A stretch of DNA of 64,000 bases from Ilumatobacteraceae bacterium. GTDB lineage: Bacteria > Actinomycetota > Acidimicrobiia > Acidimicrobiales > Ilumatobacteraceae. The position numbers and the translations under genes were made by a program. Shown here piece by piece: positions 61,012 to 64,000 of the stretch. Where the stretch lies: contig JAWPMO010000001.1 of NCBI GenBank assembly GCA_033344875.1, positions 4,737,595 through 4,801,594 on the forward strand, written 5' to 3'. Each line of letters starts with the position of its first letter. The stretch's first letter is position 1. The notes under the pieces were generated by a model. That model searched no databases and was not told the DNA's origin. It saw only the letters and a list, made by a program, of their open reading frames with translations.

Positions 61012-61638
61012 ATGTCGGTACCCGGATCGGTCGCAGCGCGCCGCCGCCCGCGACCGCTGCTGTCGCAGCGGGCCGAGGCCGAACTCGGGCCTCGCCACCG
61101 CGAGGTGCTCGACGACCTCGAGTCGCTGTTCTTGCGTGACGGGTTCTCCGGGTTCAGCGTCCGCGAGTTGGCGGCGCACGTCGGCTGTTCGCGACGGACC
61201 CTGTACGAGGTCGCCCCGTCGAAGGACGAGCTGGTCCTCATCGTGCTCGACCGGTTCCTGCATCGCGTCGGGCGTGATGCCCTCGATGCGATCGACACGA
61301 CTCGGTCGTATGCGGATCAGATCACCGCGTACTTCCTCGGCGGGGTCGAGCTGCAGCGCCTCACCCACGTGTTCGGCGAGGACCTCGCCGACGAGGCCGC
61401 CGCCCGACGGCTGTTCGATCGCCACTACGGGTTCGTGATGGCGGTGACGGAGCAGCTCGTCGCCGACGGTGTGGCCGCAGGGGAGTTCCGCCCGGTCGAG
61501 CCGGCGGTCGTCGCGGGCGTCCTCGCCGGGACCGGCATGTTCTTCCACCAGCCCGACGTCCAGAGCGACAGCGGCCTCGACCTGCAGCACGCGATCGACG
61601 GCGCCCTCGAACTCGTCGTCCGCTCCATCCGAGCCTGA
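61012..61638 (+). CDS. TetR/AcrR-family transcriptional regulator (208 aa)
   Basis: One-component repressor. N-terminal helix-turn-helix at about residues 30-75: LDDLESLFLRDGFSGFSVRELAAHVGCSRRTLYEVAPSKDEL in parts. The C-terminal ligand domain is helical and ends VVRSIRA. ATG at 61012, 25 bp after trmB. Followed 42 bp on by the thioesterase gene, a possible target. Cognate ligand unknown. Confidence 0.93.
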   Translation: MSVPGSVAARRRPRPLLSQRAEAELGPRHREVLDDLESLFLRDGFSGFSVRELAAHVGCSRRTLYEVAPSKDELVLIVLDRFLHRVGRDALDAIDTTRSYADQITAYFLGGVELQRLTHVFGEDLADEAAARRLFDRHYGFVMAVTEQLVADGVAAGEFRPVEPAVVAGVLAGTGMFFHQPDVQSDSGLDLQHAIDGALELVVRSIRA

Positions 61639-62500: not shown

Positions 62501-63643
62501 TCAGCCGTTCATCTGGGTGTTGAGCCGTTCGACCGACTCGATGAACTCCTCGATCATGTCGTACACCACGCGCGTGGCCGACTTCGACTCGTTCATGTTG
62601 CCGACGATCTGCCCGACGAAGTAGTTCGCGAGTTGGTTCGCTCCGCTGCCCTCGTGGTGTGCGGCCCGGTCGATCCGGCGGATGGCCCGGTCGATCAGGA
62701 TCGGTTGGAGCGGCATCCCGAGGGGGTCGGGCGTGTCGGGACGGTCCCACTCCTCGGTCCAGGCGGTCTTCAACTGGCGTGCATGCTTGCCGGTGCGCGA
62801 CCGTGAGCGGATCGTGTCGGCGGAGGTCGCGTGGAGGAACTTCTCCTTGACCGCCGGGTGGGTCTCGGCTTCTTCGGTGGTGAGCCACACCGATCCGCAC
62901 CAGACACCTTGGGCGCCCAGCGCCATCGCGGCGGCCATCTGGCGTCCGCGGCCGATCCCGCCGGCGCCGAGGACCGGGGTGTCGCCGACGGCGTCGACGA
63001 TCTCGGGGATCAGGACCATCGTGCCGATCTCGCCGGTGTGGCCGCCCGCCTCGGAGCCCTGGGCGATGATCACGTCGACGCCTGCGTTGACGTGCCGTTC
63101 GGCGTGCTGTGCGGCGCCGGCGAGCGCGCCGACGAGGCGACCCTCGGCCCGCACGCGTTCGATCATGTGGGCCGGCGGCGGTCCGAGCGCGTTGACGATC
63201 AGGCAGGGTCGGTGCGCGAGCGCGATCTCGAGCTGCACGTCGGCCCGATCGGCGGAGAACGGGGCGTTGTCGCCGCCGCCCCCGACGAGACCCCCGGCCC
63301 CTGCGTCGTCGGGGAGGTCGGGGACGTCGTACCTCGCGAGGATGTCGTCGACGAACGCCCGGTGCTCGTTCGGGATCATCGCCACGAGGTCGCTCAGCTT
63401 GATGCCGCCCTCGTCGGAGCCGGCGTACTTGGCCGGCACGATCAGGTCGACGCCGTAGGGGCGGTCACCGATCTCGTCCTCGATCCATTCGAGGTCGATC
63501 TCGAGCTGTCGATCGCTGTGGCCGACGGCGCCGAGCACCCCCAGCCCGCCTGCCTTCGACACGGCGGCGACCACGTCGCGACAGTGCGTGAACGCCACGA
63601 TCGGTACGTCGATGCCGAACATCTCGGTGATGGCGGTCTGCAT
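62501..63643 (-). CDS. Nitronate monooxygenase / 2-nitropropane dioxygenase-like (380 aa)
   Basis: FMN TIM-barrel oxidoreductase. Begins TAITEMFGIDVPIVAF, contains AVSKAGGLGVLGAVGHS, the phosphate-binding IIAQGSEAGGHTGEIGTMVLIPEIV and VLGAGGIGRGRQMAAAMALGAQGVW in parts. ATG at 63643. The canonical class I histidine is within the EAGGHTG loop. Many relatives act on enoyl or nitro compounds of lipid origin, so true substrate is open. Divergent from the operon at 63798 across the 11-bp iteron array. Confidence 0.9.
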   Translation of the reverse strand: MQTAITEMFGIDVPIVAFTHCRDVVAAVSKAGGLGVLGAVGHSDRQLEIDLEWIEDEIGDRPYGVDLIVPAKYAGSDEGGIKLSDLVAMIPNEHRAFVDDILARYDVPDLPDDAGAGGLVGGGGDNAPFSADRADVQLEIALAHRPCLIVNALGPPPAHMIERVRAEGRLVGALAGAAQHAERHVNAGVDVIIAQGSEAGGHTGEIGTMVLIPEIVDAVGDTPVLGAGGIGRGRQMAAAMALGAQGVWCGSVWLTTEEAETHPAVKEKFLHATSADTIRSRSRTGKHARQLKTAWTEEWDRPDTPDPLGMPLQPILIDRAIRRIDRAAHHEGSGANQLANYFVGQIVGNMNESKSATRVVYDMIEEFIESVERLNTQMNG

Positions 63644-63691
63644 GGATTCGACGGTACCAGTCGGCGCCGACCGGTACCGGGCCGGAGGGGG

Positions 63692-63742
63692 TTGACATCG
63701 ATGATGTCGCTATGACATCATGATGACATCACTACGACATCA
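63692..63742 (+). promoter_or_regulatory. GACATCA operator array with 11-bp period
   Basis: GACATCA occurs at 63714, 63725 and 63736, exactly 11 bp apart, so on one face of the helix. A fourth GACATC at 63694 overlaps a TTGACA -35-like hexamer (63692-63697), and an inverted TGATGTC lies at 63702-63708. This is a strong candidate for cooperative regulator binding controlling the rightward operon, and perhaps nitronate monooxygenase as well. Confidence 0.6.
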
Positions 63743-63797
63743 TTCGGGGTTCGGCACGGGCCGGTCCAACGAGTGGTCACGACGAGGACGAGACACC

Positions 63798-63932
63798 ATG
63801 TACGAGAGTCATCCCGATCTGCTCAGAGTCCTGCACGACCAACGGGTCGAACGGTTGCGACGCGACCGGGACGCCGGCCGGACGCGGACGCGTCGCCGCG
63901 CCGGCACGAGCCGCCTGCGCCGGGACCGCTGA
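63798..63932 (+). CDS. Small arginine-rich protein (44 aa)
   Basis: Not recognised. ATG at 63798 gives MYESHPDLLRVLHDQRVERL followed by an Arg-rich tail; a longer in-frame version from 63720 would start inside the operator array. The TGA overlaps the ATG of the next gene (TGATG), which supports a real translated, coupled ORF. First gene downstream of the iteron array. Could be a nucleic-acid-binding peptide or a leader. Confidence 0.5.
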   Translation: MYESHPDLLRVLHDQRVERLRRDRDAGRTRTRRRAGTSRLRRDR

Positions 63933-64000
63933 TGCAGGTCCAACCGATCCTCAACGGGCTTCGCGCCTCGCTCGAGAGCCAGCGATCGCTGGCGGGTGGC
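63932..64000 (+). CDS. Partial gene at window end, function unknown
   Basis: ATG at 63932 overlaps the previous stop and the frame stays open to the window edge, reading MQVQPILNGLRASLESQRSL and on. Only 23 residues are visible, too few to identify. Confidence 0.5.
   Translation, partial: MQVQPILNGLRASLESQRSLAGG

Follow-up and report, generated by a model that had tools for sequence, protein, structure and literature searches.

A phased box array before an RHH/Toastrack operon as its probable autoregulatory operator

Introduction

Operators on which RHH dimers stand side by side are known from MetJ and Arc. The half-sites of Arc lie about 11 bp apart. The boxes of the plasmid regulator omega recur every 7 bp and those of MetJ every 8 bp, as against 11 bp at the locus described here, whose boxes have a GACGTC core in common with the MetJ box, AGACGTCT. 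For omega, the accessible part of one account describes 5'-NATCACN-3' heptads, with one dimer on each heptad (PMC4803016). Autoregulated RHH operons whose operators consist of tandem boxes are, as a kind of system, already known; this particular operator and its conservation were not found in the literature searched, most of it outside subscription journals.

The second protein of interest carries a DUF4097/Toastrack domain. The portion of an article available to us describes an operon of actinobacterial origin that joins Toastrack to a transcription factor of the RHH type, and proposes that Toastrack domains help assemble sub-membrane signalling complexes (PMC11237479). The literature searched contained nothing that joins DUF4097 with HicB, or MetJ with Thr25, and publications on DUF4097 and Streptomyces, as far as their titles and the beginnings of their abstracts tell, are not about this system.

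The locus studied here lies at the end of a 64,000-nucleotide stretch of DNA from an Ilumatobacteraceae bacterium (GCA_033344875.1, contig JAWPMO010000001.1, forward strand, 4,737,595 to 4,801,594), which we call the window; positions refer to it unless stated otherwise. A preliminary description, made from the letters of the window, had drawn attention to helically phased GACATCA boxes at 63692-63742.

Materials and methods

The analysis covers 174 loci, among which no RHH protein and no upstream region occurs twice. Before counting, 14 of 188 loci had been left out, namely L001, L002 and L013-L016 (all of them the window's locus itself), L012 (a weak match in a 491-aa frame), L117, the distant matches L143-L144, and L145-L148, which are weak or fragment matches. 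Also outside the sample are 15 of 89 matches with at least 76 bits, a contig-edge fragment in G200 and weaker RHH-only matches.

Boxes were scored against the model TGRYRYCA, with at least 7 of 8 matches required and position 3 kept neutral for A or G; at least two boxes at 11 bp make a chain. In the comparison of operator and protein, the base scored is half-site position 3 and the residue scored is the one aligned with Thr100. L174, L177 and L183, which the residue pattern had missed, were counted as Asn loci. Two copies within one genome were compared in five genomes (G119, G782, G129, G793 and G777).

Results

The three GACATCA copies, at 63714-63720, 63725-63731 and 63736-63742, keep the exact 11-bp period that the preliminary description had claimed for them. 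It had also placed a fourth box on a -35-like element and listed an inverted copy, and both statements need some correction. GACATC at 63694 does overlap TTGACA, but this box reads GACATCG instead of GACATCA and is out of phase. The inverted copy is likewise present (GATGTC from 63703), but it is no separate element: since it lies exactly 11 bp before the first direct copy, it is in phase as the first box of an array of four. The phased boxes start at 63702, 63713, 63724 and 63735, and a fifth, out-of-phase box sits on TTGACA. The elements of this region are as follows.

63692..63697, + strand: -35-like hexamer TTGACA, predicted by promoter scan
63693..63700, + strand: out-of-phase box TGACATCG, which overlaps the -35 and precedes phased box 1 by 9 bp
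63702..63709, - strand: phased box 1, inverted, reading TGATGTCG on the + strand, 11 bp before box 2 and between -35 and -10
63713..63720, + strand: phased box 2, TGACATCA, overlapping the -10
63716..63721, + strand: -10-like hexamer CATCAT, predicted by promoter scan
63724..63731, + strand: phased box 3, TGACATCA, covering the inferred start of transcription
63735..63742, + strand: phased box 4, CGACATCA, after a further 11-bp step

The two hexamers make up a sigma-70-like promoter, TTGACA-18-CATCAT (63692-63721), with 10 of 12 matches; it is the sole promoter predicted in 63600-63940, where shuffled sequence gives a mean of 0.1. Judging from the position of the -10, transcription would start near 63728, and the boxes cover the spacer of the predicted promoter, its -10 and this inferred start. 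By eye, TTGACA, a 17-nt spacer and CATCAT are found again in L004 and L008, and L007 has TTGACT. Near the arrays, a loose -35/-10 pattern is present in 146 of 164 chain loci, and TTGAC, TTGC or TTGAA in 151 of 164, counts that are both uncontrolled and to which we give no weight.

A search of the genome for the same phased array, which the preliminary description had proposed as a check, found three phased boxes at one place only. In the single contig of 4,968,626 bp, GACATCA-N4-GACATCA-N4-GACATC occurs once, and the four matches to TGAYRTC-N5-GAYRTC-N5-GAYRTC (two per strand) all lie at the array; the reversed control gave 0 for either pattern. The single word GACATCA, with at most one mismatch, has 233 matches in the window compared with a shuffle mean of 193.66. 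It is the phasing, not the single box word, that sets the array apart.

We also considered a wider regulon in the same genome and rejected it. A looser two-box pattern occurs at 19 further places, and the 15 of them that were inspected yielded no second target; the sole good match among these, with at least 7/8 in both boxes, is intragenic, inside a coding ORF of 752 aa.

The operon had been described as starting with a 44-aa Arg-rich ORF and running past the edge of the window. Reading on bears this out in both respects, the number of residues included, and shows that an RHH gene and then a DUF4097 gene follow. With this extension, which had been suggested as a way to identify operon and regulator, the best regulator candidate turns out to be the RHH protein that starts at 63932, in the same operon.

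63798..63932, + strand: ORF1, 44-aa Arg-rich protein, its TGA overlapping the RHH ATG by one base
63932..64000 (first 23 codons), continuing to genome position 4801978, + strand: ORF2, RHH regulator of 150 aa, by Pfam match
4801989-4802756 of the genome, outside the window: ORF3, DUF4097/Toastrack protein of 255 aa, starting 10 bases after ORF2

In ORF2, residues 98-136 match the Pfam family TacA1 with 25.9 bits and residues 94-130 match HicB with 23.9 bits (cut-off 21 for both), and ORF3 matches DUF4097 with 68.9 bits (cut-off 22.9). The 44-aa ORF1 has no match in Pfam or NCBIfam. Within A1, the nine-member set behind our RHH model, HicB of Pfam was found in all nine proteins and TacA1 in seven. 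When solved structures were searched, significant PDB matches were confined to DUF1778 proteins and KacA (E 1.6e-4 to 6.1e-4), and MetJ was not among the 13 matches. In plasmid records, tblastn found no match at E 1e-5. The distance from the RHH stop to the DUF4097 start falls between -60 and 150 bases in 156 of the 174 loci.

Two unusual frames were seen along the way. In L060, a single 287-aa reading frame encodes both an RHH domain and Toastrack-like repeats; its contact residue is Ala, and no phased chain precedes it. It may be a natural fusion of the operon partners, or, as a single locus, an assembly artefact. L117 (G000:C1:2564642-2564779, - strand) is a second, weak RHH match in the window's own genome, in a 73-aa frame (E 2.1e-4).

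The preliminary description had made its operator depend on the presence of the array in orthologous promoters. This was tested, and the array is present: a phased array stands upstream in 164 of the 174 RHH loci, the five closest orthologs (L004-L008) included, which supports the claim of a dense operator on the promoter. Those five loci have two to five boxes before the operon, with direct and inverted boxes intermingled in four of them. Across the whole sample, 164 of 174 loci have two or more boxes at 11 bp and 109 of 174 have three or more, compared with 32 and 0 in 5,220 dinucleotide shuffles. For the other lags between 7 and 21 bp, two boxes were found in at most 35 of 174 loci; at a lag of 22, that is twice eleven, they were found in 126. 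Since the box model had been drawn up after the first loci had been seen, 16 pseudo-palindromic classes were also scanned without preference, and in the first 134 loci only GAyrTC (76) and GGyrCC (12) came up at lag 11. The ten loci without a chain are L011, L029, L060, L080, L086, L092, L108, L115, L116 and L174, of which L115 and L116 are incomplete genes.

Downstream of the RHH gene, 168 of 174 loci have DUF4097. The divergent upstream gene (62501-63643) was found in a single one of the 174 RHH loci, the window's own, about 1.5 kb of upstream sequence being covered in most of them. Array and operon are inherited together, and within the stretches covered the divergent gene does not travel with the array. 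The operon itself is patchily distributed. A query with the single RHH protein matches 10 of 61 genomes, including 5 of 10 of the window's genus (own genome counted). The A1 model, whose genome counts take in weak RHH-only matches and come from sets that share some genomes, finds matches in the class in 109 of 296 genomes and in the phylum in 55 of 296; in the sets around G349, G432 and G412 the counts are 96 of 246, 11 of 41 and 1 of 16, respectively.

The distance between array and RHH gene defines two layouts. At least 90 bp separate them in 63 loci, including the window's. In 79 of the 164 chain loci, the last box ends right before the RHH start codon or on its first base (0 and +1); L046 (TGGCGCCATG), L051 and L070 are examples. 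With the last box touching the start codon, operator and start codon would share constraint, and the mRNA may be leaderless; from promoters of this layout, transcription would set in at the start codon or close to it.

A small ORF is present in 61 of the 63 long leaders and in 616 of 1,260 shuffled ones, and since shuffled leaders so often hold such an ORF too, the length criterion alone says little. The small ORFs of L004-L008 and further long-leader loci resemble one another in composition, and related sequences recur among them (for example MLWYNNPE... in several loci and MHPFLYP... in L006-L008). Changes between homologs fall on third codon positions in 15 of 20 cases for L007/L008, in 20 of 30 for L043/L074 and in 20 of 30 for L043/L078, but in only 5 of 10 for L019/L021. 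The likeness of the sequences and the third-position excess in three of four homolog pairs argue that the small ORF is translated. Its putative products look like a small basic protein family without a name, of about 25-60 aa, with a hydrophobic start and an Arg-rich end, coded between array and RHH gene; the genes are often near the RHH start codon or overlap it.

The array also appears to vary with the protein. Loci with Thr at the scored residue have 509 A and 62 G at half-site position 3 (108 loci; 101 with a majority of A, none with a majority of G, 7 ties), and those with Asn have 33 A and 162 G (36 loci; none with a majority of A, 33 with a majority of G, 3 ties). The counts are 56 A and 33 G for Ser (16 loci; 9 A-majority, 3 G-majority, 4 ties) and 18 A and 1 G for Ala (4 loci). 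This suggests that the half-site base varies with the middle one of three alternate beta-strand residues, Thr going with TGA and Asn with TGG. In AmrZ, according to the accessible part of PMC3325190, bases are contacted by Lys18, Val20 and Arg22, which alternate along the beta-strand, and RHH proteins generally have a neutral hydrophilic residue at the middle one of these positions. Going by the matched ranges of a non-significant match (3qoq, E 0.52), the AmrZ residues would correspond to R98, T100 and R102 here.

Among the genomes with two copies, G119 combines an Asn copy, L081, with 0 A and 6 G and a Thr copy, L103, with 4 A and 0 G. The Asn copy of G782 (L179) has 1 A and 3 G, and its Thr copy (L180) has a mixed array with 2 A and 2 G. 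In G129, the Thr copy has 4 A and 0 G and the Asn copy is without a chain. Both copies are Asn and G-rich in G793 and in G777.

Shared descent limits what these counts can say. Independent pairs of Asn and another residue number one on supported branches and four to five on best trees. The supported pair went in the expected direction in 192 of 200 draws, showed no difference in 8 and never went the opposite way; with a concatenated RHH and DUF4097 tree, 182 of 200 draws were as expected and 18 showed no difference. A tree of 132 rows, built earlier, agreed with this. Because so few independent switches are below what a sign test needs, we do not take the Thr/Asn code as established and have downgraded it: one supported independent pair is too few for significance. 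A Ser-specific operator class was rejected as well. Mixed boxes such as TGGCGTCA are frequent in Ser loci, but they also occur in the Thr loci L119, L131 and L140, and no Ser/Thr effect is left once kinship is allowed for (independent pairs: 0.3 with, 0.5 against, 3.2 no difference).

Two further box forms were noticed. In a few loci whose contact residue is Ala (L106, L109 and L110), boxes resembling TGATATCA, with TA in the centre, stand 11 bp apart; they may represent another operator class. The distant relative L143 (Paractinoplanes) is of the Asn type at the contact residue, and boxes resembling TGGTGCCA and TGTGCCA can be made out by eye ahead of its start codon.

Discussion

On our data, the array most probably serves as a cooperative operator by which the RHH protein encoded in the operon keeps its own promoter repressed. 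Several lines of evidence were counted for an RHH operator: direct and inverted boxes alternate, which fits a symmetric dimer; the operon codes for an RHH domain, is inherited together with the array, and shows covariation between half-site and residue; and the Asn and Thr paralogs of G119 have differently made-up arrays. On the other side of the balance stand the ten loci without a chain, the small number of independent Thr/Asn switches, the missing Ser/Thr effect and the other four two-copy genomes. In keeping with RHH autoregulators, the regulator has an RHH domain (HicB/TacA1 of Pfam), and repeated two-fold-symmetric sub-sites with fixed spacing stand upstream of its own operon.

Together, these findings suggest a model for the control of the operon. 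RHH dimers would bind the phased array, one dimer per pseudo-symmetric box. Adjacent dimers, one helical turn apart and on the same face of the DNA, would touch, making binding cooperative. The row of dimers would cover the spacer between -35 and -10, the -10 and the transcription start, and would thereby exclude RNA polymerase. The small ORF and the RHH and Toastrack proteins would be kept low until a signal releases the promoter.

An RHH protein could also bind the array and activate, or do both depending on occupancy. AmrZ and H. pylori NikR are the two characterized RHH proteins that both activate and repress, according to the accessible part of PMC3325190. We consider such a role improbable here, since in the window the predicted -10 and the inferred start both lie under boxes and the last box is at the RHH start codon in 79 of 164 chains, positions suited to blocking polymerase.

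It is slightly less probable still that the array serves an unlinked or neighbouring regulator and that the RHH protein is a mere passenger. A TetR-like ORF, recognized by eye, lies at 61012-61638, 2 kb from the array, and would be a candidate. However, the array is common to orthologs in whose covered stretches the divergent upstream gene was not found, and the identity of the half-site base goes with that of an RHH-protein residue, both of which speak against a regulator from the neighbourhood.

Very unlikely, in our view, is an activator of the SARP type. Three heptamers with 4-nt spacers are the classical 11-bp SARP repeat, as given in the accessible part of PMC5930380, and GACATCA-N4, three times over, has exactly this form of heptameric direct repeats at 11 bp. 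SARP sites, however, share one orientation and lie at or upstream of the -35, whereas the boxes here occur in both orientations, reach over the -10 and, in other loci, to the start codon, and recur with the RHH operon in 164 of 174 loci. That the array travels with this operon also speaks against reading the word “iterons”, used in the preliminary description, in its replication sense. A chance or low-complexity repeat without function can practically be dismissed, given the single place in the genome, the reversed control of 0 and an array kept in 164 of 174 loci.

Returning to autorepression by the RHH protein, the question arises what the Toastrack protein contributes. It is a reasonable guess that it is a direct partner of the RHH protein (ORF2-ORF3), judging from the proposal that Toastrack domains belong to signalling complexes, the RHH/Toastrack operon in the accessible part of PMC11237479 and the possible fusion in L060. 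A joint reading goes further, and we think it rather doubtful as a whole: the operon would be a phylum-wide, toxin-free relative of antitoxin operons, Toastrack would be an envelope-linked sensor that strengthens or releases the RHH autorepressor, and the switch between Thr (TGA) and Asn (TGG) would insulate paralogs from each other, a code of one residue and one base pair.

The RHH and Toastrack pair is widespread and, in the literature searched, has so far been annotated by domain only. With its operator located precisely and a concrete circuit proposed, its regulon, its inducing signal and the part played by Toastrack become testable. The correlation of Thr and Asn with TGA and TGG offers a natural set for probing how RHH beta-sheets recognize bases by single residues.

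Among known systems, TacA/DUF1778 and HicB antitoxins have in common with our protein an RHH domain above the Pfam cut-offs. Type II toxin-antitoxin systems such as HicAB and TacAT differ in what follows the RHH gene, here DUF4097 and not a toxin gene, and ORF1-3 have no match to a toxin family in Pfam or NCBIfam. Databases presumably label such RHH genes HicB-family antitoxins, after the Pfam name, an annotation that would mislead because DUF4097, not a toxin, follows. The DUF4097/Toastrack domain of ORF3 is shared with the PSP/Lia envelope-stress systems. The actinobacterial operon of PMC11237479 is likened there to one with ABC transporter genes, and neither an operator nor a small ORF is described in the portion of that article available to us.

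The phage P22 repressors Arc and Mnt likewise have an RHH domain, although in the search of solved structures they reached only E 0.057-1, which is not significant by sequence. In the alignment, the Asn of Arc stands where the N-type proteins described here have Asn. The protein here differs from Arc and Mnt in being longer, with an N-terminal region of about 90 residues, in having two to five boxes in a row, and in sharing its operon with a Toastrack gene. Omega and MetJ have tandem boxes with one dimer per box, the same arrangement that we propose for the array described here.
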